DNA of 64,000 nt from Bizionia myxarmorum (GTDB taxonomy: Bacteria; Bacteroidota; Bacteroidia; Flavobacteriales; Flavobacteriaceae): assembly GCF_008086205.1 (NCBI RefSeq), contig NZ_VSKK01000001.1, positions 558,001 through 622,000 of the forward strand, in the 5' to 3' direction. Below are positions 21,607-35,098 of this stretch, in pieces. Each line of letters begins with the position of its first letter. Within the stretch, counting starts at the first letter, position 1. The notes beneath the pieces are model-generated. The model saw only the letters and a program-made list of their open reading frames with translations. It ran no database searches and had not been told where the DNA came from. Position numbers and translations under genes: made by a program.

Positions 21607-23535
21607 TTACTTTTTATCCCAAGTATCATTCAAGGTATTAATATCTGCCAACATCTTATTTGGATCTAAAACCACACGCTTCACGCTTTTCTTCGTCTTT
21701 AAAAGGTGCGTCCAGCTATTTCCACGCTGCCAAATTTCCACTGGAAGTGATACGTTTTCAGTAGAATTATCTGAATAGGTTACTTGAAGTTCAACAGGCA
21801 TTGGAATTTGTCCGTTATTTTCAACTGTTATAAGATAATTACCTTCATGAGGTTTCACATCAGAAACGCTCATATCTATGTTGCCATTTCCATAAAACCA
21901 ACCTTTCCAGAAATAAGATAAATTTTCTCCCGCCACATTTTCCATATGATTAAAAAAGTCATTTGGCTGTGGATGTTTATATGCCCAATTACGGATATAA
22001 CTATTGAATGCATTATCAAAACGTTCGGTACCCAATATATACTCACGTAGCATAAAAAGTCCAGCTGCAGGCTTATAATATGCCGTATACGCTAAATTTC
22101 TAGCGTGCGCTACTTCTGGAGATGTATCAATACCTTCACGGTTTTCAAACGTAAGATATTTCACTATTCCACGAGGTTTATCTGTGTCTGTAGGATATTC
22201 ACCTTTATTAAAAGCGGCCGTACTGTAATGGTTTATAAAAGTATTAAAGCCTTCGTCCATCCAAGGATAGCGACGTTCATTAGAGCCAACAATCATTGGA
22301 AACCAGTTGTGACCGAATTCATGATCTGTTACGCCCCATAAACCAGCTTCCTTACTTTTATAACTACAAAAACTAACGCCTGGATATTCCATACCGCCCA
22401 CATTTGCAGCCACATTTATAGCATTATGATATGGGTAAGGAAAGTATGTTTTAGAGTAATATTCTATGGAACCTTTGGTATATTCCGTTGATCGTGACCA
22501 AGCTTTGGAGCCATCACTTTCAATAGGATATACGGATTGCGCCAATCCTGTTTTGCCATCACCAAGATCCATACGAGCTGCATCCCAAATAAATGCTTTT
22601 GAAGAAGCCCAAGCCACATCACGCGTGTTTTCCATTTTGAAATGCCAAGTTAAGGTACCTTTATTTTTTAAGTTTGAAATAGGCTTTCCAACCTCATCTG
22701 GTTTGATAATATATACCGTTTTATCACTTTTTTCAGCTTGTGAAAAACGTTCTAATTGGGTTTTAGTAAGAACCTCTGTTGGGTTTTGCAAAATACCGGA
22801 ACACACAACCGTTTGATCAGACGCAGCGGTGATTTTCACATCAAAATCGCCATATTCACAATAGAATTCACCAGCACCTAAATAAGGCTCCGTATTCCAA
22901 CCTACAACATCATCAAAAACAGCTACGCGAGGATACCATTGTGCCATAGCGTAAATAGTTCCCATTTTAGTGTCTAACCTTCCCATACGATCCATTCCTT
23001 CAACAGGTACTTTGAATTTAAAATTCATGCTAATAGTAACTTCACCACCTTTAGCAGCTAATGGTTTATCTAGAAAAAGTTGCATTCTCGTATCCGAGAT
23101 TAAATGTTTGGAAGATGTTCCCGTTTTTGTTTTTGCCGAAATGTTAGTTAATTCTAAACCACCTTCGACATCACCACTATAACGACTTCCTAAAACGGAT
23201 GTGGTTAATGTACCACGCGAGTTTTCGGTAAAACGGTTTTGCTCTAAATAAAGCCAGATAAAATCTAAAGTTTCTGGACTGTTATTTGTGTACTGGATTG
23301 TAACCTTCCCGGAAACCATATGGTTTTTATCGTCTAAAGAAACTTCCAAATTATAGTCGGCAGAATTTTGCCAATATTCAGGACCCGGTTTTCCAGAGGC
23401 CGAGCGGTAAACGTTGCCCTCACGGTAGGTAAATTCATTAAATAATTGCTGATTGCCATAATTTGCTTCTTGGGCAACGAGTGAAAAAGAAAAAGCGAAC
23501 AGCAATATAGACATGCTGCGTCTAAAATACGTCAT
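21607..23535 (-). CDS. M1-family zinc aminopeptidase, exported
   Basis: 642 residues with a signal peptide (1-21, ending SLVAQ). The gluzincin site HEFGH (405-409) with Glu428 in WMDEGFN, spaced 18 residues on, is complete. The exopeptidase motif GGMEYPG (about 380) matches the GXMEN-type loop that binds the substrate N-terminus. Family M1 enzymes remove N-terminal residues from peptides; here it should act in the periplasm or outside. A second M1 gene lies at 47935 and is a lipoprotein. No T9SS sorting domain is present. Monocistronic. Confidence 0.9.
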   Translation of the reverse strand: MTYFRRSMSILLFAFSFSLVAQEANYGNQQLFNEFTYREGNVYRSASGKPGPEYWQNSADYNLEVSLDDKNHMVSGKVTIQYTNNSPETLDFIWLYLEQNRFTENSRGTLTTSVLGSRYSGDVEGGLELTNISAKTKTGTSSKHLISDTRMQLFLDKPLAAKGGEVTISMNFKFKVPVEGMDRMGRLDTKMGTIYAMAQWYPRVAVFDDVVGWNTEPYLGAGEFYCEYGDFDVKITAASDQTVVCSGILQNPTEVLTKTQLERFSQAEKSDKTVYIIKPDEVGKPISNLKNKGTLTWHFKMENTRDVAWASSKAFIWDAARMDLGDGKTGLAQSVYPIESDGSKAWSRSTEYTKGSIEYYSKTYFPYPYHNAINVAANVGGMEYPGVSFCSYKSKEAGLWGVTDHEFGHNWFPMIVGSNERRYPWMDEGFNTFINHYSTAAFNKGEYPTDTDKPRGIVKYLTFENREGIDTSPEVAHARNLAYTAYYKPAAGLFMLREYILGTERFDNAFNSYIRNWAYKHPQPNDFFNHMENVAGENLSYFWKGWFYGNGNIDMSVSDVKPHEGNYLITVENNGQIPMPVELQVTYSDNSTENVSLPVEIWQRGNSWTHLLKTKKSVKRVVLDPNKMLADINTLNDTWDKK

Positions 23536-23663: not shown

Positions 23664-23999
23664 TTAATACAGTAAATGCTGTTTGGCTTTTGAGCCCCAC
23701 CCAGCTTGATTTTCATAGTCTACGAAGAAAATTTTTAAATCGGCCTGATTGGCGTAATCCACATAATAGATTTTCTTTTTAGCTTGATTAGCATAGTCTG
23801 TAAAAAACCATTTCCCGTCATTTTTTCCAGCTTGGTTGCTATATTTTACTTTATAAACCTTTAAATCTGCTTGGTTTTCATAGTCTACTACAAACACCTT
23901 AACATCGGCTTGATTTGCATATTCAACAGAAAATATCTTTTGTGCCGAGCAGGTAAATCCGAAACATACAACAGCAAATGTAAGTAGTAGAGATTTCAT
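23664..23999 (-). CDS. Exported repeat protein with YxNQA units (DUF6150-like)
   Basis: 111 residues: signal peptide (1-19, ending TCSAQ) followed by six to seven short units each built around a (D/E)Y-x-NQA core, for example SVEYANQADVKVFVV and YYVDYANQADLKIFF, about 13 residues apart. One unit carries an insert GKNDGKWFF. The regular strand-turn pattern suggests a small beta-rich structure. It resembles the short periplasmic DUF6150 type proteins in layout; function unknown. It stands between two unrelated minus-strand genes and appears to have its own transcript. Confidence 0.65.
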   Translation of the reverse strand: MKSLLLTFAVVCFGFTCSAQKIFSVEYANQADVKVFVVDYENQADLKVYKVKYSNQAGKNDGKWFFTDYANQAKKKIYYVDYANQADLKIFFVDYENQAGWGSKAKQHLLY

Positions 24000-24062: not shown

Positions 24063-24782
24063 TTATTTACAAACGCCGTCTGTGTCGCAGCTTTGTCCTT
24101 GGGTAACTTCCAATTTTGTAACTGGATTAAGTTTTCGCCATTCTGAAAATGCTTTATTTAAAGTTTCTAAAAAAGCTTCGGCCGGTTGCGCTCCCGAAAC
24201 GGCAAATTTTCTATCCAAAACAAAAAATGGCACACCGCCAACACCAACTTGTTGGGCTTCCTGAATATCTTGTTTCACAAAATAAGCATATTGGTCGTCT
24301 ATAAAAGCGGTTTGTATTTCAGATTCCTCTAAACCAATTTCTTTACCCAATTGCGTTAATGTTTCCAAATCGGCTATGTTTTTTCCTTCTGTAAAAAAGG
24401 CTAGAAATAAGCGTTCTTCAGCGGCATCTCCTAAATCTTTTGATTTAGCAAACTGAATAAGTTTGTGCGCATGCAGGGAATTCACCATGATGGCTTTATC
24501 TAAATTATATTCCAAACCCACTTTTTTGGCAGATTGGGTAACGTTATCCAACATTCCGGCAACTTGCTCCGCACTCATACCCTTGTGTTTGATAAGATAA
24601 TCTTGATAGCTTTCGTTTGCTACTTCAGGAATGGAAGGGTCTAGTTGGAAACTTTTCCATTCTACTTCAACATGATTTTTGTCTGTAAATTGTTTCAATG
24701 CTGATTCAAAATTCCGCTTTCCGATGTAGCAAAATGGACACATAACATCGCTCCAAATTTCTATTTTCATCTTATTTTCCAT
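24063..24782 (-). CDS. DsbA-family oxidoreductase, FrnE-like
   Basis: 239 residues (235 if the second ATG, at 24770, is used, which begins MKIEIWSDVMCPFCYIG). The redox site is CPFC directly after the first beta strand, as in FrnE and 2-hydroxychromene-2-carboxylate isomerase relatives; the cis-Pro loop is VGGVPFFVLD. There is no signal peptide, so it is cytoplasmic. A C-terminal Cys pair (SCDTDGVCK) is unusual and might form a second redox pair or bind metal. Physiological substrate not known. Confidence 0.85.
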   Translation of the reverse strand: MENKMKIEIWSDVMCPFCYIGKRNFESALKQFTDKNHVEVEWKSFQLDPSIPEVANESYQDYLIKHKGMSAEQVAGMLDNVTQSAKKVGLEYNLDKAIMVNSLHAHKLIQFAKSKDLGDAAEERLFLAFFTEGKNIADLETLTQLGKEIGLEESEIQTAFIDDQYAYFVKQDIQEAQQVGVGGVPFFVLDRKFAVSGAQPAEAFLETLNKAFSEWRKLNPVTKLEVTQGQSCDTDGVCK

Positions 24783-24949: not shown

Positions 24950-26746
24950 TTATGCTTCACAACTTGTACAATCTTTTTTCTGCTTAAATTTCTGCGCAGC
25001 ATTCATACTATGCTGATAGTAAAGCGATTTTAAACCTAATTTCCATGCGGTAACATGAATTTTATTAATCTCTTTAACGGGCATATCTGGATGTACAATA
25101 ATATTTACAGATTGACCTTGATCTATATGATTCTGGCGATTTGCTGCTTGATAAATAATATCCATCTGGTCAATTTCAGAATAGGTTTTAAAGACGTCTT
25201 TCTCTAAATCTGTTAAGAAATCAAGATGTTGTACAGACCCATCAAAATCACGAATACTATGCCATACATCTTGTGTATTTTGACCTTTTTCTTCTAATAA
25301 ATCTTCTAAATAGGCATTTTTAATGGTCGTTTTAATTTTGGCAATATCTTTCACATAAATATTGGACCAAATTGGCTCAATTCCTTGAGATACTTGACCT
25401 AAAATAAAAGCGGACGACGTTGTTGGCGCAATGGCATTTAAGGTGGCATTACGTCTGCCGTAGCCTTTCAACACTTTTGGTTCGCCAAATATTTGCGCTA
25501 ATTCAGCTGAAGCCGCATATGATTTCTCCTTAATAAGTTTAAAAATATCACTATTTAAACTATAGGCCTCTTGACTGTTAAATGGCAACATTTTAGATTG
25601 AAGCAAAGAATGCCATCCTAAAACGCCTAAACCTAAAGCTCTATTTTCTTTGGCGAAATTATAAGCGCGTTCCATAAATAGGAAGGTTTGACGGTCTTCT
25701 CTATTTTCAGAATCTCTATAAGCTTCTAATTTTTCAATAAATTCAGTAATAACCGCATCCAAGAAATAGACCATGGTTTCAACTGCATCGGTATCTTTCC
25801 ATTTGTCATAATGCAATACGTTTACTGATGATAAAACGCAAACAAAAGACCAATCATCATTAGACGGCAACATAATTTCCGTACACAAATTACTAGCATA
25901 AATAGTGTGTTTTTCATTTTTGTACACATCAGCAGCGGCATTGTTGGCATTGTCTTTAAAGAAGATATATGGATAACCCATTTCACCTCTTCTTTGTAAT
26001 ACTTTAGCCCAAACAGTACGCTTTTGCTCATCGCCGGCAACCATACTTTCCATCCACTCATTGGTAACAGTAACACCATGCGTTAACTCCTGAATGGGGT
26101 TTCCTTCTGTACCAATTTCCAAGAACTCCATAATATCAGCGTGCTCAACAGGTAAATACGGTGAAAAACGACCACGTCTTACCGAACCTTGACTAACCAC
26201 ATCCACCATAGATTCAAAAAGTTGCATAATATGAACTGCTCCTGAAGCTTGACCGTTATTTTTTACTTCTGCACCACGCGGACGAATTTTTCCAAAATAT
26301 CCAGATGTTCCACCACCTAGTTTAGACATCATCCCTACTTCTGACTGCGTATATAAAATATTACCCATGTCATCCGATACATGCGATCCAAAACAACTAA
26401 TTGGCAACCCTCTTTTTTGCCCAAAGTTTGACCAAACTGGTGATGCTAATGAATAAAAGCCTTCAGACATATAACCATAAAACTTGTCTGAATAGCCGGG
26501 TATTTGAAGAATTTCTTCTGCACGATCTGCAATTTCGCGAATTCGTTGTTCAGCGGTCATTCCGTTAGAAATGTAACCAAGAGATAAAAAGTTTCGGCTG
26601 TGATCTGTTAACCATTCAAAACCCTTACTTGACTCTTGTTGATTATTTTTTAAAGCTTCTTTTCTAGATTTTACAAGTAGGTCGTTGTCGTTTGAGGTTT
26701 TAACTTCTGTGTTTTCTGTGTTTAGCGTAAGTTTTTCGTTGTTCAT
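24950..26746 (-). CDS. nrdA: Ribonucleoside-diphosphate reductase, catalytic alpha subunit (no ATP-cone)
   Basis: 598 residues from the ATG at 26746, 1 nt after the nrdB stop; an upstream frame start inside nrdB is less likely. The class I active-site set is visible: Cys118 in PISCFGS, the radical triplet Asn286-Cys288-Glu290 in SNLCTEIMLP, and Cys303 in FVCVLSSVN. The C-terminal tail ends in a redox pair, CTSC. The protein is short for NrdA because the N-terminal ATP-cone that normally senses ATP/dATP is missing; that domain is on NrdB instead. It makes deoxyribonucleotides in the cytoplasm. Translationally coupled to nrdB and followed by a terminator. Confidence 0.93.
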   Translation of the reverse strand: MNNEKLTLNTENTEVKTSNDNDLLVKSRKEALKNNQQESSKGFEWLTDHSRNFLSLGYISNGMTAEQRIREIADRAEEILQIPGYSDKFYGYMSEGFYSLASPVWSNFGQKRGLPISCFGSHVSDDMGNILYTQSEVGMMSKLGGGTSGYFGKIRPRGAEVKNNGQASGAVHIMQLFESMVDVVSQGSVRRGRFSPYLPVEHADIMEFLEIGTEGNPIQELTHGVTVTNEWMESMVAGDEQKRTVWAKVLQRRGEMGYPYIFFKDNANNAAADVYKNEKHTIYASNLCTEIMLPSNDDWSFVCVLSSVNVLHYDKWKDTDAVETMVYFLDAVITEFIEKLEAYRDSENREDRQTFLFMERAYNFAKENRALGLGVLGWHSLLQSKMLPFNSQEAYSLNSDIFKLIKEKSYAASAELAQIFGEPKVLKGYGRRNATLNAIAPTTSSAFILGQVSQGIEPIWSNIYVKDIAKIKTTIKNAYLEDLLEEKGQNTQDVWHSIRDFDGSVQHLDFLTDLEKDVFKTYSEIDQMDIIYQAANRQNHIDQGQSVNIIVHPDMPVKEINKIHVTAWKLGLKSLYYQHSMNAAQKFKQKKDCTSCEA

Positions 26747-26747
26747 A

Positions 26748-28022
26748 TTAAAAAAGGTCATCACTGGTTATACTTTGCGTTCTTTTACTGTAGTTGATTG
26801 AGCGTTTCACGAAGAAATCACCGTGTTTGGTGCCAATAATTTCATCATCAAACCATTCGGTTCCTGCTAGAAGGTTTTTATCTATCTCAAATATTTTACC
26901 AATTCCTATACTTTCTAGTGAATTGTTAAAACGGTGTTTAATAAACTCATTGATTAGGTTTTTTGGTAAGAAATCCAATTCACCGTCTTCAAAAATCCAG
27001 TCTATAATTTTACTTTCTGATTCAAAAGCTTCGCGACACATGTCTTGAATTCTTATTTCATATTCTTCATCAAACCAATCTGGATTTTCCGCTTTTATAA
27101 TTTTAATAAGATCAATACCAAAATCACCGTGAATTTGTTCTTCTTTAGACGTTGCTTCAACCACATTAGATATCCCTTTCAGCATATTTTTATGTTTGTT
27201 AAAAGCCATAATTATTAAAAACTGCGAGAATAAGGACACGTGTTCAATAAAAAGAGAGAACAACAATACTGATTCTGAATACTCTTTATTATCGTCACTT
27301 TTAGCGTTCTTTAAAGCAGTTTCTAAATACTGCACACGCTTCATAATAACAGGTTTCTTTTTCAGGTTTTTAAATTCTTCATTTAAACCTAAAACCTCTA
27401 ATAAATGCGAATACGCATCGTGATGACGTACTTCACTTTCCGCAAAAGTTGCCCCGACTGAACCTATTTCTGGTTTCGGCATTCTGTGATATAATTCACC
27501 CCAGAAATTCTTTACAGCCACTTCAATTTGAGAAATAGCCAACATGGTATTTTTTATAGCCGTTTGTTCTGGACCTGATAATAGGGTTTTAAAATCCTGA
27601 ACATCACTTGTGAAATTAAATTCGGTATGAATCCAGTATGAATGTCTGATAGCAGGAACATATTCGTATAATTCTGGATATTCATATGGCTTTAAATTAA
27701 TACGTTTTTCAAAAATATTGCTTTTACGCTTTTTAGACTGCTCATTTCGGTATAAAATATAGGCTTTAGCAACATCAAAAAACCCACTTTCCATAAGTTT
27801 AGTCTCTACAAAATCTTGCACTTCTTCCACAGTCGGTAAATAATCCGTGTCTAGTTGTTTTCTATGTAACAGCGATGTAAAAACCTTGTTTGAAATGCGT
27901 TCAGCATCTTCCAATTGGCCGTGTTGAACGGCAGTCATTGCTTTTAAAATAGCGTTTGTAATCTTGTTTAAATCAAAGGGTTCCGTTAGGAAGTCTCTTT
28001 TTAAAACAGAAATAATTTTCAT
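26748..28022 (-). CDS. nrdB: Ribonucleotide reductase radical-generating beta subunit with N-terminal ATP-cone
   Basis: 424 residues, about 90 longer than ordinary NrdB. Residues 1-90 (MKIISVLKRDFLTEPFDLNK through VEETKL/AYILYRNEQ) have the ATP-cone pattern normally at the NrdA N-terminus. The ferritin-like core has metal ligands at about Glu167 and in SEVRHHDAYSH (Glu197, His200), with Tyr204 at the position of the E. coli radical Tyr122. The same design is known from Leeuwenhoekiella blandensis, where dATP inhibits through the beta subunit and the cofactor is dimanganese (class Id). Whether this protein uses a Tyr radical or Mn(III)Mn(IV) cannot be read from sequence. First gene of nrdB-nrdA. 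Confidence 0.92.
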   Translation of the reverse strand: MKIISVLKRDFLTEPFDLNKITNAILKAMTAVQHGQLEDAERISNKVFTSLLHRKQLDTDYLPTVEEVQDFVETKLMESGFFDVAKAYILYRNEQSKKRKSNIFEKRINLKPYEYPELYEYVPAIRHSYWIHTEFNFTSDVQDFKTLLSGPEQTAIKNTMLAISQIEVAVKNFWGELYHRMPKPEIGSVGATFAESEVRHHDAYSHLLEVLGLNEEFKNLKKKPVIMKRVQYLETALKNAKSDDNKEYSESVLLFSLFIEHVSLFSQFLIIMAFNKHKNMLKGISNVVEATSKEEQIHGDFGIDLIKIIKAENPDWFDEEYEIRIQDMCREAFESESKIIDWIFEDGELDFLPKNLINEFIKHRFNNSLESIGIGKIFEIDKNLLAGTEWFDDEIIGTKHGDFFVKRSINYSKRTQSITSDDLF

Positions 28023-28462: not shown

Positions 28463-29536
28463 ATGAAAAATATAGTAATAGTATTTACACTAGCTTTGAC
28501 CACTTTAATGAGTTGCGATACAGATTTCGACAACGACCCAACAACTGTTTGCAACGCAAAATTTTATGCTTTTCAAGCCAGCAATGAAGCCACCGTTATT
28601 GGCGATATGTTAAATGTTGGTTATCTTACCAAGTTTAACCCAAATACAGCTCCCGTATTTAATAATTCCATTCCCAATAGCAGCTTTAATGATGAGGGCA
28701 CCCTATTTTATCCAACTAGCGCGTTAAAAAACGACAATTCACAATTGGTTAGTTTAGCAGCTAAAACGGGAGGAAAAAGGCTTTTAAAAGCTGATTTTCC
28801 TAGCGCTACCGTAACTCAAAATAGTACCATAAGCTCCGATTTAAGCGCTGTAGTTTATGTGAATAATGATTTAAGGTTTTTAAAAATAACAGATAAGGTA
28901 AATCAAATAAGCGCCCCTTATAATGATGTAATTAATTTTAAGGCTGAATTAGTTGACGAATCTGGAACATCTTTTTCGGGAGCACCTCAAATAATTAATC
29001 TTCCAGACACTGTAGAAAACGGATTTAGAGATTCTAATATTGAAGGTGTCTTTTTAGATAATAAAGTCTACTTTCTAGCAAATTGTCAGCTTTTAGTTTA
29101 CGACTTGCTGACCTCTAATTTCAATGTAGAAACCATTGCTTCGTACGCTGGTGCCAACGACAGAAAATTTATGCAAGGTCTGGAAATAAGCCAATCCAAC
29201 ACCTTATTAATGATGAAGCAAACCGTTTTACCAAATTATAAAATTGAAATTTTAGAGCTGCCATCAATCTCCGCTGGAGATTATACGTCTACCTCATTAT
29301 TTAATTTGGAGGCATCAAGTTTTCCAGCAAACAGTCCGCAATTATCTTCTATAATTAATGCACAAGAAAGGCGATCGACCACTTATGACTCTTGCGATAA
29401 CACCTATTATTTTACTTTTATGAGTAGCTATTCACCATACAATACAAGCGTTTACGAAATAGATTTGAATGCGTTTAGCATTGCCAATTATCCATTTAAT
29501 AACAGTTATATTTTTGGATTAGAAGTTCAGAAATAA
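28463..29536 (+). CDS. Hypothetical lipoprotein
   Basis: 357 residues. MKNIVIVFTLALTTLMSC is a lipoprotein signal with lipobox LMSC. The mature part is rich in beta strands and Ser/Asn, with no catalytic motif seen; spaced segments such as VYVNNDLRFLKITD, GVFLDNKVYFLANCQLLVYDL and TYYFTFMSSYSPYNTSVYEIDL are compatible with a beta-propeller. I do not recognise a family. No operon partner; a degraded coding stretch follows downstream. Confidence 0.75.
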   Translation: MKNIVIVFTLALTTLMSCDTDFDNDPTTVCNAKFYAFQASNEATVIGDMLNVGYLTKFNPNTAPVFNNSIPNSSFNDEGTLFYPTSALKNDNSQLVSLAAKTGGKRLLKADFPSATVTQNSTISSDLSAVVYVNNDLRFLKITDKVNQISAPYNDVINFKAELVDESGTSFSGAPQIINLPDTVENGFRDSNIEGVFLDNKVYFLANCQLLVYDLLTSNFNVETIASYAGANDRKFMQGLEISQSNTLLMMKQTVLPNYKIEILELPSISAGDYTSTSLFNLEASSFPANSPQLSSIINAQERRSTTYDSCDNTYYFTFMSSYSPYNTSVYEIDLNAFSIANYPFNNSYIFGLEVQK

Positions 29537-30140: not shown

Positions 30141-30545
30141 TTATTCCTTTATATCTTGGCATAACTCAATCAATACGCCATTTGTGGATTTTGGATGTAT
30201 AAAAGCCACTAATTTGTTATCGGCTCCCTTTTTTGGTGTTTTATTTAAAACTGTAAATCCTTCTTTTTCAAGTCGTGCTATTTCGGCTTCAATATCATCC
30301 ACATCAAAAGCAATATGGTGAATACCTTCACCTCGTTTTTCTATAAATTTCGCTATCGGGCTATCCGGATTTGTAGCTTCTAGCAATTCAATTTTATTAG
30401 AACCAACTTGGAAAAACGATGTATTAACTCCTTCACTTGCCACTTCTTCAATCTTATAATGCGATGCATTAAAAAGCTTAGCAAATAAGTCATTTGAGGC
30501 TTCTAAATTTTTTACGGCAATACCTATATGTTCAATTTTATTCAT
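30141..30545 (-). CDS. mce: Methylmalonyl-CoA epimerase
   Basis: 134 residues from the ATG at 30545, which begins the conserved MNKIEHIGIAVKNLE; the frame continues 43 codons upstream over a repeat and a promoter and is not used. A glyoxalase/VOC-fold enzyme with metal ligands in IEHIGIAV (His6), RGEGIHHIAFDVDD and GVLIELCQ. It interconverts (R)- and (S)-methylmalonyl-CoA in propionate metabolism, partnering a B12 mutase not in this window. Divergent from rbfA; a minus-strand -7 box TATTTTTG at 30614-30621 is a likely promoter. Confidence 0.92.
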   Translation of the reverse strand: MNKIEHIGIAVKNLEASNDLFAKLFNASHYKIEEVASEGVNTSFFQVGSNKIELLEATNPDSPIAKFIEKRGEGIHHIAFDVDDIEAEIARLEKEGFTVLNKTPKKGADNKLVAFIHPKSTNGVLIELCQDIKE

Positions 30546-30561
30546 GGCTATTTTCCGGCAA

Positions 30562-30579
30562 TCCCGATAGGTATCGGGA
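30562..30579. repeat. Palindrome of the CCCGATA-nn-TATCGGG type
   Basis: tcccgata / tatcggga around gg, in the leader of mce. It shares the core with 29644-29661. Confidence 0.6.
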
Positions 30580-30613
30580 GAGTTCTTTTTAATTAAAACT
30601 ATTTTAGTATCTT

Positions 30614-30621
30614 CAAAAATA
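30614..30621 (-). promoter_or_regulatory. -7 box TATTTTTG of mce
   Basis: Minus-strand TAnnTTTG match, 68 nt upstream of the mce ATG and back to back with the rbfA box. The mce leader would contain the CCCGATA palindrome. Confidence 0.35.
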
Positions 30622-30641
30622 CAATAATCTTTAAATATGCG

Positions 30642-30649
30642 TATTTTTG
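30642..30649 (+). promoter_or_regulatory. -7 box TATTTTTG of rbfA
   Basis: Exact TAnnTTTG match ending 4 nt before the rbfA ATG, so the mRNA may be leaderless or nearly so. Confidence 0.45.
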
Positions 30650-30653
30650 TGCC

Positions 30654-31049
30654 ATGGAAGAAAGTCAAAGACAAAAAAAGATAGGATCCGTTTTACAACG
30701 TGATCTGGTAGAAATACTTCAAAAGGCTGCTATTGATGGCGGTATGCAAGGTGTTTTAATTTCCGTTTCAAAAGTGAAAGTTACCGTCGATTTATCGGTT
30801 GCTAAAGTATATTTAAGTATTTTCCCTAACGATAGAGCTAAAGAATTACTTGTTGGTATCCGCTCCAATGCGCCACTTATTAAGCACGAATTAGCACAAC
30901 GCACCAGACATCAACTTCGCCGTATGCCACAATTAGAATTTTTTGTGGACGACTCATTAGAATATATTGATGGAATTGAAAAATCATTGAAAAGAACCGA
31001 AAATCCAATTAATGATCCAGATCTTTTAGATAAGCGTAGAAAATCTTAA
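30654..31049 (+). CDS. rbfA: 30S ribosome-binding factor
   Basis: 131 residues, KH-type fold. Family features: N-terminal RQKKIGSVLQRDLVEILQ, central VSKVKVTVDLSVAKVYLSIFP and RHQLRRMPQLEFFVDDSLEY. It helps mature the small ribosomal subunit at the 5' end of 16S rRNA. It is followed 67 nt later by a LolC/E-type permease in the same direction, an arrangement that could be one transcript. Confidence 0.95.
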   Translation: MEESQRQKKIGSVLQRDLVEILQKAAIDGGMQGVLISVSKVKVTVDLSVAKVYLSIFPNDRAKELLVGIRSNAPLIKHELAQRTRHQLRRMPQLEFFVDDSLEYIDGIEKSLKRTENPINDPDLLDKRRKS

Positions 31050-31116
31050 TCGGTTTAAAAAATCTTCAAAACGATAGGCTTTTCAAGTTTCAATCTGTTT
31101 ATAGCTTGTGTAATTT

Positions 31117-32322
31117 ATGAATTTTTCACTCTATATAGCGAAACGGTATTTGCTTTCTAAAAGCAGCAACAATGCTATTAACTTTATTACACTCATTGCC
31201 GCCATTAGTGTGGTTTTAGGTGCATTATCGCTATTTATTGTTTTGTCTGGATTTGCAGGTTTAAAAGATTTCACCTTACAATTCACCTCTTTAGTGGATC
31301 CCGATTTAAAAGCGGAAGCTGCCGTTGGGAAATCGTTTAAAGTTTCTTCAGAAGAACTTCAAGCACTCCAAAACCATCCTGATATTGTTTTTTTTTCTCA
31401 AATTGTTGAAGAACGCGTTTTCATCACTTTTGAAGACAAGAATTATCCAAATGCCTATATAAAAGGTGTGGATGAAAATTTTGAATCGGTTACAGCTATC
31501 GATTCTGTAGTGCCGCTTGGTAGTTGGTTTTCTGAAAACAGCAACCAAATTGTAACGGGTTGGGGCATTGCAAACCGATTGAATATTGGAGTAATGGACT
31601 ACGGAAAAACCCTTGAATTATATATCCCAAAACCAGGAAAAGGTCAGGTAACCGATGTTAAACAAGCATTTACCAGCACCAAAGTAATAAATGTTGGCAT
31701 TTTTGATATTAACGAAGCAGCTAACAATAAATATATTTATGCACCTATAGAAATGGCGCGTTTTCTTTTAAATTTTGAAGGCAATCAAATCACAGCTTTA
31801 GAATTTAAAACCCGTGAAGGCAGCAAAGAATCTGATACCCGAGAAGCGATTACAACTATTTTAGGCGATAAGGTTATATTAAAAAATAGCGAGCAGTTAA
31901 ATGATGCGCTGTATAAAATGCTAAATACCGAATATTTAGCGGTATATCTCATTTTCACGCTAATACTAATTATTGCTTTATTTAACGTGGTTGGAACTAT
32001 TATTATGATGATTCTAGATAAAAAGAAAACGCTTCATACGTTATATCATATGGGCGCAACGATTCAAGATATTAGACGAATTTTCTTTCTGCAAGGCTCG
32101 TTAATGACCGTTTTTGGTGGATTGATTGGGCTGCTTGTTGGTTATCTAATCGTGCAAGTTCAAATAAGTTTTGGATTGGTAAAAATTACACCTTCACTAC
32201 CCTACCCAATGGCTATTAATTTGGAGAATTTTCTGATTGTATTTATTACCATTTCAGTTTTAGGAATTTTAGCATCTAAAGTTGCTTCCGTTCGCATTAC
32301 GAAAAACTTAGTGAGTTATTGA
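31117..32322 (+). CDS. ABC permease of the FtsX/LolC-LolE type
   Basis: 401 residues. One N-terminal membrane helix (about 22-47, NFITLIAAISVVLGALSLFIVLSG), a large periplasmic domain (about 50-270), then three C-terminal helices (about 275-300, 325-350 and 370-390): the FtsX plan. The start MNFSLYIAKRYLLSKSSNNAINFIT is typical of LolC/LolE proteins that release outer-membrane lipoproteins from the inner membrane. No ATPase gene (lolD) lies beside it; the ATPase would have to come from elsewhere. The role in lipoprotein sorting is inferred from family. Confidence 0.85.
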   Translation: MNFSLYIAKRYLLSKSSNNAINFITLIAAISVVLGALSLFIVLSGFAGLKDFTLQFTSLVDPDLKAEAAVGKSFKVSSEELQALQNHPDIVFFSQIVEERVFITFEDKNYPNAYIKGVDENFESVTAIDSVVPLGSWFSENSNQIVTGWGIANRLNIGVMDYGKTLELYIPKPGKGQVTDVKQAFTSTKVINVGIFDINEAANNKYIYAPIEMARFLLNFEGNQITALEFKTREGSKESDTREAITTILGDKVILKNSEQLNDALYKMLNTEYLAVYLIFTLILIIALFNVVGTIIMMILDKKKTLHTLYHMGATIQDIRRIFFLQGSLMTVFGGLIGLLVGYLIVQVQISFGLVKITPSLPYPMAINLENFLIVFITISVLGILASKVASVRITKNLVSY

Positions 32323-32463
32323 TTTTTAAAAAGACTTAAGACCGCTGTGCTTATAGAATCCAGAAAATAGACTGGAGCAAAACAGACTCAATATATAGGT
32401 ATGTAAACGATAAGCAATTTGCTTTCGAGTTTTGAACCACAAATAAATATAATATAGGGTTTG

Positions 32464-33459
32464 TTATTGAGCAAATTCGTAGCCTGAAAATGATTCTAAA
32501 ACAGCATCAAAAGTAGCAAAAACATCTTCAGATTCATCACTCGTTACCATTTTCATGCGGTATTCTTTAAAGTTTGGAATCCCTTTAAAATAGTTGGTAT
32601 AATGTCTTCTGGTTTCAAAAACACCTAACTTTTCACCTTTCCAATCAATAGCCATTTGTAAATGACGTTTGGCGGCATCCACCCGTTCTTCTAAAGAAAC
32701 TGGCGCTAAATGTTCACCTGTATTAAAAAAGTGTTTCACTTGCTTAAAAAACCAGGGATTTCCAATGCTTGCGCGACCAATCATACAGCCATCTAAACCA
32801 TAAATATCACGCATTTCCATGGCACGTTCAGGCGTATCCACATCGCCATTTCCAAAAACAGGAATATGCATGCGTGGATTGTTTTTTACGGCAGCAATTG
32901 GTGCCCAGTCGGCTTGACCTTTATACATTTGTGCACGTGTACGGCCGTGAATGGAAATAGCTTGGCAACCTACGTCTTGTAATCGTTCAGCAACTTCTAA
33001 AATCCGGATAGAATCATGATCCCAACCCAAACGGGTTTTTACAGTTACGGGTAAATTGGTGCGTTTTACCATTTCAGCGGTGAGTTTTTCCATGAGGCAG
33101 ACATCTTTTAAAATACCAGCGCCAGCTCCTTTACTCACTACTTTTTTAACAGGACAACCAAAATTAATATCAATGATATCAGGATTGGATTTTTCTACAA
33201 TATCAATGGTTTGCAACATGCTTTCCAAATTGGCGCCAAAAATTTGAATACCAACAGGACGTTCCTTTTCATAAATATCAAGCTTCATGATGCTTTTTGC
33301 CGCGTCACGAATTAAGCCTTCACTAGAAATGAATTCCGTGTAAACCACATCTGCGCCTTGTTCCTTACACAATGCCCGAAATGGTGGATCGCTTACGTCT
33401 TCCATAGGTGCTAAAAGCAGTGGAAAGTTTGGAAGTTCTATGTTACCTATTTTTACCAA
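32464..33459 (-). CDS. dusB: tRNA-dihydrouridine synthase
   Basis: 331 residues from a TTG at 33459, giving MVKIGNIELPNFPLLLAPMEDVSDPPF, the usual Dus start. A longer frame to 33504 would take in the -7 box and has an atypical N-terminus. TIM-barrel flavoenzyme with the catalytic Cys102 in NFGCPVKKVVSKGAGA, substrate/FMN segments VTVKTRLGWD and SIHGRTRAQMY, and IGRASIGNPWFF. It reduces uridine to dihydrouridine in tRNA D-loops. The subgroup letter is uncertain. Confidence 0.92.
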   Translation of the reverse strand: MVKIGNIELPNFPLLLAPMEDVSDPPFRALCKEQGADVVYTEFISSEGLIRDAAKSIMKLDIYEKERPVGIQIFGANLESMLQTIDIVEKSNPDIIDINFGCPVKKVVSKGAGAGILKDVCLMEKLTAEMVKRTNLPVTVKTRLGWDHDSIRILEVAERLQDVGCQAISIHGRTRAQMYKGQADWAPIAAVKNNPRMHIPVFGNGDVDTPERAMEMRDIYGLDGCMIGRASIGNPWFFKQVKHFFNTGEHLAPVSLEERVDAAKRHLQMAIDWKGEKLGVFETRRHYTNYFKGIPNFKEYRMKMVTSDESEDVFATFDAVLESFSGYEFAQ

Positions 33460-33476
33460 GAGACTATTAATTTGTG

Positions 33477-33484
33477 CAAAATTA
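33477..33484 (-). promoter_or_regulatory. -7 box TAATTTTG of dusB
   Basis: Minus-strand TAnnTTTG match, 17 nt upstream of the TTG start. It supports the short form of the protein, since a longer form would begin 20 nt upstream of this box. Confidence 0.45.
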
Positions 33485-33673
33485 CGACTTTTTATAGTTA
33501 TCAATATAATTTTTACAATTATGGCTGTTTAAAATCCAAAAACCATAAAATCCTATGAATAATTCGGCAATGGTTCCAAATTGAAAACCATAATAAAATG
33601 AAACAGGAACCACAATGGACACTGAAATAATGAGATGAATTTTTGCTATAAATTCCTGTTTGTTGAATCGCAT
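33482..33673 (-). CDS. Small membrane protein, 63 residues
   Basis: Begins MRFNKQEFIAKIHLIISVSI; two hydrophobic segments (about 11-28 and 34-50) and a short polar tail ending NYKKS suggest a two-helix inner-membrane protein. It lies in the gap before dusB in the same direction, ending inside the dusB -7 box. No family recognised; start codon ATG, composition normal. Could be a chance frame. Confidence 0.45.
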   Translation of the reverse strand: MRFNKQEFIAKIHLIISVSIVVPVSFYYGFQFGTIAELFIGFYGFWILNSHNCKNYIDNYKKS

Positions 33674-33811
33674 CGAGTTAATTAAAAGTTTATTTTTTTG
33701 TCAGTTCAAGTGCAGTCGCGAACCAATCGTCTTATAAATTAGTTTTCGACTGCGCTCTACCTGACATTCCCAATGATAACCGACCATTAAATATGCAGGT
33801 AAAAATGATCT

Positions 33812-35035
33812 TTAAAATTTTAAATTAACTTCCAGTGGTTTCCCATCTCTTTTTACGGTTACTTTGGTACTATCGCCCGTATCAAAAGCAGATAAAGCAC
33901 GCATATAACTCATCATATTTGTAACGGTGCTATCACCTAATTTAATAACCACATCACCTTTTAGTAAACCTGCTTTTTGGGCTGGTTTATCTTCACTAAC
34001 GCCATCAATTCTCATGCCTGCGCCATCATATAAATAATCGGGAACAACCCCTAATCCGACTTTAAAACGCGGTGTTTCTTCACTTTCGTTCTTGGTTTTT
34101 CTGAAGGCTAATTTGCCGTTGTCGTTTAAATCTGTAATTAAATCAAAAATATAATCGGAAATCGTTTCCATTCCAGCGTAATTCAACTTATCAGAATCAT
34201 CACCTGGTTTGTGATAATCTTCATGCTGACCTGTGAAAAAGTGTAAAACAGGAATATCAATTAAATAAAATGAGGTATGATCACTTGGACCTACACCAGA
34301 TTCATTTTCAATTAATTTAAATTTATCATTATGAGAACTTAAAACTTGTTTAAAAATAGGTGATGTTCCCGTACCATAAACTGCTAAAGTGCTGTCTTGT
34401 TTTAAACGGCCTACCATATCCATATTAATCATGTAGCTAACCGCTTTACTATCAACGGTCGGGTTTTTGGCGAAATAATTAGAACCTAATAAACCCATTT
34501 CTTCTCCAGAAAAAGCCATAAACAAATAATTATTTGCCGTATTTGTTTTCTGTAATTTTCCTGCTAAATCTAGCATTACAGCCACGCCACTCGCGTTATC
34601 ATCGGCACCGTTATGAATAGCTTTTTCACCTTTATAAAGTGAACCTTCGCCTCCATAACCCAAATGATCATAATGCGCGCCAATAATGATAGTGTTTTCA
34701 GCTTTATTATCAATATATCCCAAAACGTTTGTTCCTGTAATGGTGCTATCCTGACTATTTTTAGTAAAATCTACATCACCATGCGGCTCTGTTTTAGGTT
34801 TAAACGTAAAGGCTTGGTAGAAGTTGTTGGTGCCTTTACCTTGTAATCCAATTTCTTCAAACCGTTTTACAATATAAGCAGCCGCTTCTTTTTCACCTTT
34901 GGAACCCGTTTCGCGACCTTCTAACTTATCATCAGCTAGAAAAGCCACGTCTTCTTTCATTTTATTTTCGTGTTTGTAATCCTTTTTACAACCTAACAGC
35001 GATATAAAAAGTGCGAGTAGCGCTATTTTCTTCAT
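33812..35035 (-). CDS. M28-family zinc peptidase lipoprotein with PDZ domain
   Basis: 407 residues from the ATG at 35035; MKKIALLALFISLLGC gives lipobox LLGC (Cys16). The co-catalytic zinc ligands of family M28 are all visible: GAHYDHLG, NGADDNASG, FSGEEMGLLGS (Glu-Glu), NMDMVG and QHEDYHKPGDD. A C-terminal PDZ domain (about 315-407, GLGVVPDYLYDGAGMRIDGV) probably binds substrate C-termini or partners. It should be an aminopeptidase held at a membrane facing the periplasm. Divergent from the TolB-like propeller gene. Confidence 0.9.
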   Translation of the reverse strand: MKKIALLALFISLLGCKKDYKHENKMKEDVAFLADDKLEGRETGSKGEKEAAAYIVKRFEEIGLQGKGTNNFYQAFTFKPKTEPHGDVDFTKNSQDSTITGTNVLGYIDNKAENTIIIGAHYDHLGYGGEGSLYKGEKAIHNGADDNASGVAVMLDLAGKLQKTNTANNYLFMAFSGEEMGLLGSNYFAKNPTVDSKAVSYMINMDMVGRLKQDSTLAVYGTGTSPIFKQVLSSHNDKFKLIENESGVGPSDHTSFYLIDIPVLHFFTGQHEDYHKPGDDSDKLNYAGMETISDYIFDLITDLNDNGKLAFRKTKNESEETPRFKVGLGVVPDYLYDGAGMRIDGVSEDKPAQKAGLLKGDVVIKLGDSTVTNMMSYMRALSAFDTGDSTKVTVKRDGKPLEVNLKF

Positions 35036-35046
35036 ATTAATAGTGT

Positions 35047-35054
35047 TATTTTTG
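35047..35054 (+). promoter_or_regulatory. -7 box TATTTTTG of the TolB-like gene
   Basis: TAnnTTTG match 44 nt before the ATG at 35099. Confidence 0.4.
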
Positions 35055-35098
35055 ACGAAATTAAACAATAATTGCCAATTATTTATTACAACCGTAAT

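Follow-up and report, generated by a model that had tools for sequence, protein, structure and literature searches.

The nrdBA operon of Bizionia myxarmorum most probably (we put the probability at about 0.94) encodes an ordinary NrdAi/NrdBi, or class Id, ribonucleotide reductase (RNR) of the Leeuwenhoekiella blandensis type, in which dATP would act through an ATP-cone carried by the radical-generating subunit, NrdB. The operon lies within the window, the 64,000-nucleotide stretch of DNA analyzed here, and its genes run on the minus strand in the order nrdB, then nrdA. What was observed directly is the domain layout, the conservation of metal ligands and interface residues, the order of the genes, and their distribution among relatives; the features concerned are:

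26748..28022, minus strand: nrdB, class Id (NrdBi) radical-generating subunit with N-terminal ATP-cone, 424 aa, from Pfam matches and identity to 5OLK
27735..28010, minus strand: ATP-cone domain, NrdB residues 5-96 (PF03477, E 1.2e-21)
26880..27704, minus strand: NrdB ferritin-like core, residues 107-381 (PF00268, E 2.6e-63)
27393..27545, minus strand: NrdB residues 160-210, with E167, K171, W174, E197, H200 and Y204; 43 of 51 identical to L. blandensis NrdB
24950..26746, minus strand: nrdA, catalytic subunit lacking an ATP-cone, 598 aa from the ATG just past the nrdB stop codon
24892..24919, minus strand: terminator-like stem-loop and T run 3' of nrdA; three such sites in the stretch against 2.0 expected from shuffles

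Profile searches place the cone on NrdB. Residues 5-96 of NrdB score 77.5 bits against the PF03477 cut-off of 25.8, ahead of the Ribonuc_red_sm core, whereas Pfam at E up to 1 revealed no ATP-cone in NrdA, only a strong Ribonuc_red_lgC match (E 4.6e-96) and, below cut-off, Ribonuc_red_lgN at residues 87-119 (17.4 bits) and DnaJ-X (12.7 bits). A cone profile of our own, built from three seeds that include the window's cone, gave the same division at E up to 10: it matched 81 of 81 NrdB proteins and 0 of the 81 adjacent NrdA proteins. These represent the window and 80 relatives, the best 80 of 560 stretches with relatives in a scan of named genomes; as the nearest, they are uninformative on distant NrdBi. 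NrdA itself exceeds the cut-off of the NCBIfam model TIGR02510, NrdE-prime (E 5.6e-230), and its best PDB match is 6dqx (E 2e-217), while NrdB falls below the cut-off of all 16 NCBIfam models listed, which were only beta-subunit and cone-bearing RNR models. The usual class I layout, with the cone at the N terminus of NrdA, is thus not the one found in the window. The first-pass annotation had proposed precisely this from the letters alone, namely that the extra N-terminal ~90 residues of NrdB are an ATP-cone and that NrdA has none of its own, and both proposals hold: the cone match of NrdB lies across this N-terminal part (residues 5-96), and the N terminus of NrdA yielded none.

We considered that an NrdA cone might have been overlooked through a wrongly chosen start, and rejected the idea. 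The gene starts at the nrdB stop codon, leaving no room for such a domain, and a scan of the genome gave no second nrd-linked cone. An in-frame GTG at 26764, inside nrdB, would extend the product only to 604 aa (24950-26764), and the ATG at 26746 is the likelier start. Tight spacing is general among the relatives: measured from the last base of the nrdB stop codon, the first suitable nrdA ATG is at -14 to +4 nt in 80/80 of the nearest 80 of 560. The stem-loop downstream of nrdA fits an nrdB-nrdA transcript that stops before the DsbA-like gene, although, with three sites against 2.0 expected, it is weak evidence. As a separate observation, NrdA bears a charged stretch of ~12 residues, EAYRDSENREDRQ, at residues 347-362 (numbered from the GTG); it corresponds to a gap when NrdA is aligned with two solved class Id NrdA proteins, 6dqx and 6dqw, and is present in the eight commonest forms among the 80 relatives (39/80 rows).

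The closest solved protein to the window's NrdB is L. blandensis NrdB, 5OLK (E 2.2e-216), with 320 of 422 aligned residues identical (76%); numbering in the window protein is that of L. blandensis minus 3. Identity is unevenly spread, at 55/98 in the cone and 265/324 in the core, so that by sequence the cone is clearly less conserved than the core. Within the cone, we examined the residues that form the cone-cone interface and bind phosphate in the dATP tetramer (L. blandensis positions 73, 76, 80, 89, 92, 93, 95 and 102). Seven of the eight are identical and one is a conservative change: D70, E73, M77, K86, I89, R92 and R99 are as in 5OLK, and L90 replaces Ile93. The same proportion, 7/8, is invariant across 80/80 of the nearest relatives among 560, and position 90 in this set is Leu in 54, Ile in 25 and Gln in 1. 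One detail of the interface deserves caution. The salt-bridge residue of L. blandensis NrdB is printed as Asp76 in PMC5794259, and the letters of 5OLK read Glu76 and Asp77, for which the window has Glu73 and Thr74. If Asp77 is the residue meant by the paper, Thr74 would be predicted to remove the salt bridge.

The lower identity of the cone raises the prospect that it is a degenerate passenger, present but no longer serving as a dATP switch, a notion that gains some color from the description, in part of PMC5794259, of ATP-cones as dynamically gained and lost. We nevertheless regard this as very unlikely: the nucleotide and interface residues listed above are kept, seven of the eight throughout the near relatives as well, and the Pfam score stands far above cut-off.

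The metal site also points to the L. blandensis enzyme. All six metal ligands are kept (E167, E197, H200, E260, E295 and H298, equivalent to Glu170, Glu200, His203, Glu263, Glu298 and His301 of L. blandensis), and K171, W174, Y204 and T291 are identical to Lys174, Trp177, Tyr207 and Thr294. These ten residues, Tyr204 included, are invariant in 80/80 relatives (the nearest 80 of 560). According to the relevant passages of PMC6754362, NrdBi proteins are marked by Glu rather than Asp as first metal ligand and by Trp in place of the Tyr of NrdBk. Both marks are found in the window's protein, as E167 and W174, as is the Lys three residues ahead of the Trp that marks the subgroup to which the three studied members belong (L. 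blandensis Lys174; K171 here). The first-pass annotation had named L. blandensis class Id as the precedent, and an overall identity of 320/422, with ligands, Lys and Trp kept, bears this out; the alignment of residues 160-210 that it had suggested as a check gave 43/51 identities.

The same annotation took the retained Tyr204 to leave the use of a tyrosyl radical open. The residue is indeed there, yet the question is hardly an open one: L. blandensis NrdB has an equivalent Tyr (207), far from the metals and held by Thr294, which corresponds to Thr291 here. The case for a Tyr204 radical beside a diiron or dimanganese center, as in class Ia or Ib, would be that this Tyr occupies, by alignment, the place of the radical-bearing Tyr in other classes, as stated for L. 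blandensis Tyr207 in an excerpt of PMC6754362. However, the same source places the Tyr207 hydroxyl 7.6 Å from Mn1 in the Mn-loaded structure, held by Thr294, and its authors consider that, at such a distance, a standard Mn2(III,III)-Tyr radical cofactor is apparently precluded in L. blandensis NrdB. A Mn(III)Mn(IV) EPR signal is reported for active samples of that protein in the part of PMC5794259 concerned, and the EPR of Facklamia ignava NrdB, as summarized in PMC6754362, has no tyrosyl radical signal. With the class Id signatures Lys171 and Trp174 also present, a Tyr204 radical seems most improbable, and a class Id reading lacking a stable tyrosyl radical is what we would expect, by analogy, for the window's NrdB.

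For the metal, the radical type and the oligomer switch we draw on published work on L. blandensis and F. ignava, from which a working model can be proposed. NrdB would assemble a Mn2(IV,III) cofactor and form no stable tyrosyl radical. With ATP in the N-terminal cone, NrdB would stay a dimer and form active alpha2beta2 with NrdA; with two dATP bound per cone, the cones of two NrdB dimers would pair to give an NrdB tetramer. This tetramer would bind NrdA unproductively, as alpha2beta4 and alpha4beta4 complexes in which no productive radical transfer could occur. Each element of this switch in L. blandensis (ATP dimer, dATP tetramer, alpha2beta4 and alpha4beta4, two dATP per cone) is described in the sections of PMC5794259 that deal with it.

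Any such switch would act in a genome with few other ATP-cones. A PF03477 scan of the whole genome returned two only, the cone on NrdB and another fused to an Mrr-like nuclease. The repressor NrdR is expected to match PF03477, so the scan, having returned just the NrdB and nuclease cones, gives no apparent NrdR in an assembly rated 99.91% complete. On these search results, the NrdB cone would be the sole ATP-cone on an RNR or RNR repressor in the genome. The genome also encodes NrdJ (852 aa, TIGR02504 E 1.8e-166), which has no cone; a further RNR in the host is a feature of the L. blandensis-type enzyme, since hosts of NrdB-cone RNRs are said in part of PMC5794259 to encode another RNR. The nuclease fusion merits mention in its own right. 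This 295-aa protein (L002:889-1776, minus strand; cone at G000:C5:117655-117870) combines an N-terminal ATP-cone (E 2.6e-8) with an Mrr-type nuclease domain (E 3.1e-5), adjoins two genes that look universal-stress-like by eye, and is a candidate nucleotide-sensing nuclease. The five other genomes of the genus have cones on frames of 281-302 aa.

The NrdB-cone architecture is common in the family. In a draw of 299 family genomes, 121 had an NrdB match at E up to 0.001 (counted by hand from the table). The match was full length with a cone in 67/299, the window's included, at 73-100% identity and starting at residue 1-6, and was confined to the core in 16, at 42-50% identity, starting at residue 88-102 in frames of 322-359 aa (two of the 16 have a stop inside the match). 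In the remaining 38 genomes the matches were all weak and to other small subunits. The interval from 50 to 73% identity contained no long match, just one short stretch (G007, 54%). Among the best 80 of the 560 relatives, cone, core and a directly following nrdA were found in 80/80; the genera named in their titles include Bizionia, Xanthomarina, Arenibacter, Maribacter, Gelidibacter, Aequorivita and Leeuwenhoekiella, and the other titles are bins of Flavobacteriaceae, Flavobacteriales or Bacteroidia. RefSeq was reported to hold 93 NrdBi with a cone, 70 of them in Flavobacteriales, in the portion of PMC5794259 on this point. At the level of the bacterial class, a draw of 60 genomes (mostly one per family) gave an ATP-cone of some kind in 45. 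Of these matches, 30 were taken as loci and comprise, by best hit, 27 NrdA-like and two NrdD-like cones besides the window's own, one of the two NrdD-like cones being weakly so; one match outside this set lies on a 386-aa frame.

Within the genus, the cone-bearing NrdB is found in 2/6 genomes, the window's (100%) and G300 (95% identity), and was sought and not found in G107, G299, G301 and G302. In each of those four, a frame of 827-845 aa that matches the NrdA barrel also has a cone (E 1.6e-15 to 2.5e-15). In G107, for instance, a 326-aa NrdB precedes an 826-aa NrdA, with Pfam matches to the small subunit (E 1.6e-111), the barrel (3.7e-219) and the cone (5.7e-14); this NrdA is above the cut-off of TIGR02506 (NrdE/NrdA) and the NrdB is above that of no model, so the sister enzyme is another class I RNR that we name no finer than class I. 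Searching these four with the window's NrdB gave a weak small-subunit match in G107 and G299 and none in G301 and G302. Frames of 853-856 aa give a further barrel match in 6/6 genomes of the genus, the one in the window's genome being the cone-less NrdJ.

The first-pass annotation had cast this arrangement as a cone moved from NrdA to NrdB of the same enzyme, and the presence of cones on NrdA in the sister genomes might seem to favor such a move within the lineage. This part of the annotation does not survive. The sisters hold a different class I enzyme, with large subunits only 27-28% identical to the window's NrdA and, in G107, the one tested, above the TIGR02506 cut-off; NrdB cones separate from 29 NrdA cones of the same bacterial class in each of three trees (100/100, 100/100 and 100/99); and, according to PMC5794259, no NrdAi/NrdBi RNR has a cone on the catalytic subunit. 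A transfer of the domain within the lineage is therefore scarcely credible, and the difference within the genus is one of whole enzymes, not a domain shift from NrdA to NrdB.

The trees comprised 46, 44 and 43 cones over 104-116 columns. Rows were loci that passed our three-seed profile (46), among them 8 of the 80 named NrdB loci; the nuclease-type cones L002 and L126-L135 were given to the profile and did not pass, and class-draw matches that had no locus were left out. Hosts were labelled by the best hit to a set of five references of our own, and the label of L149 comes from a weak hit (29%, 52 bits). L149 and L151, and then L150, were dropped for long branches or doubtful host. The nine NrdB cones form one group in all three trees (support 94/94, 91/93 and 91/86) and fall on the side of five NrdD cones. 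In the first tree, L150 joins the NrdB cones (88/80, with a long-branch warning); in the second, which omits L149 and L151, this join has no resolution; in the third, which omits L150 too, NrdB and NrdD cones lie on one side, in an analysis whose bootstrap had not settled. The only stable result of these trees is the separation of NrdB cones from the 29 NrdA cones. L150 itself (G319:C63), from another family of the class, is a 919-aa frame with two successive ATP-cones, an arrangement like that of the P. aeruginosa type of NrdA. Searched alone against solved structures, the window's cone matches, after 5OLK, 5im3 (E 4.3e-7) and the class III reductases 8p23 (E 5.9e-7) and 9d3x (E 3.2e-4), the sole other hits at E up to 1 being two titin chains at E about 0.8.

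The chromosomal position of the operon bears on its history. The window's nrdBA adjoins a group of five genes (30141 to 35068), among them a glyoxalase-family gene and rbfA, that is kept together in G300, G107, G299 and G301 at 83-95% identity. Past the glyoxalase-family gene, 19-kb regions of G107, G301 and G299 matched none of the 20 window genes compared. The cone-bearing NrdA lies hundreds of kilobases from rbfA in G107, G301 and G299 and on a different contig from rbfA in G302, and nrdBA lies ~14 kb from rbfA in G300. In Xanthomarina contigs L039 and L040, nrdBA and the glyoxalase-family gene are separated by 0.5 and 2.5 kb. This position suggests that the class Id operon was already here before the genus split and was then lost in some species; gain of the operon by exchange is a possible alternative. 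We lean toward a composite view: that in 2/6 genomes of the genus the dATP switch would be borne by the NrdB of a class Id manganese enzyme and in 4/6 by the NrdA of another class I RNR, through whole-operon exchange or differential loss and with no NrdR-like back-up seen in the window's genome, and that the NrdB cone would be kin to those of class III NrdD or double-cone NrdA, not to ordinary NrdA cones of the same bacterial class.

Genes beside the operon show a similar patchiness. In the 2/6 genomes of the genus that have the class Id operon, it is accompanied by the DSBA-domain gene (24063-24782) and a close copy of the M1-peptidase-domain gene (21607-23535). In the other four, no match to the former was found, and the M1-peptidase copies are 39% identical or less. 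The two genes and the operon are possibly one block, gained or lost together. A functional link between nrdBA and the DsbA-like gene was rejected, the pair being found in 2/81 nrdBA loci (L038 and L136, which, judged by length, are the same contig) within flanks of 4 kb or less, some of which end early. Between the DSBA-domain and peptidase genes lies a 111-aa protein (23664-23999, minus strand) made up of repeats such as YANQAD / YENQAD that matches the uncharacterized family DUF6150 (E 4.9e-25). On the other side, the gene at 28463-29536 is present in 1/6 genus genomes, the window's own, and matched no Pfam family at E up to 0.001.

The operon adds another genome confirming a published case, in which an allosteric domain is placed on a different subunit. 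Sister species that differ in their class I enzyme, and so in the subunit that bears the switch and perhaps in the metal, would suit a comparison of whether cellular dNTP control depends on where the switch sits.

Among known systems, the nearest solved cone by sequence outside NrdB is that of 5im3 (E 4.3e-7), which we take to be Pseudomonas aeruginosa NrdA. That identification is also given in PMC5794259, where the sections concerned report the binding of two dATP, as in L. blandensis; the P. aeruginosa cone, unlike the window's, is on the catalytic subunit. The class Id enzyme of F. ignava (Grx-ATP-cone-NrdB) likewise has its cone on NrdBi, and a Mn(III)/Mn(IV) cofactor is reported for it in part of PMC6187632, but it has an extra N-terminal glutaredoxin domain, of which Pfam found none in the window's NrdB. 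The core-only homologues of the family draw reach 42-50% identity to the core of the window's NrdB. That core also matches 6cwo (E 2.2e-101), from a set, 6cwo-6cwq, presumably of Flavobacterium johnsoniae class Id NrdB. The F. johnsoniae protein shares the class Id core and differs in having no ATP-cone, according to PMC6754362. Closest of all is the class Id RNR of L. blandensis (NrdB 5OLK; NrdA A3XHF8), which also has a cone on NrdB and none on NrdA (from the relevant parts of PMC5794259 and PMC8350387) and shares the metal ligands, Lys174, Trp177, Tyr207 and Thr294; it differs in overall sequence (76% identity; cone 55/98), with Ile93 replaced by Leu and Asp77 by Thr here. The window's RNR is thus an ordinary member of a known group, already described and crystallized from a close relative.
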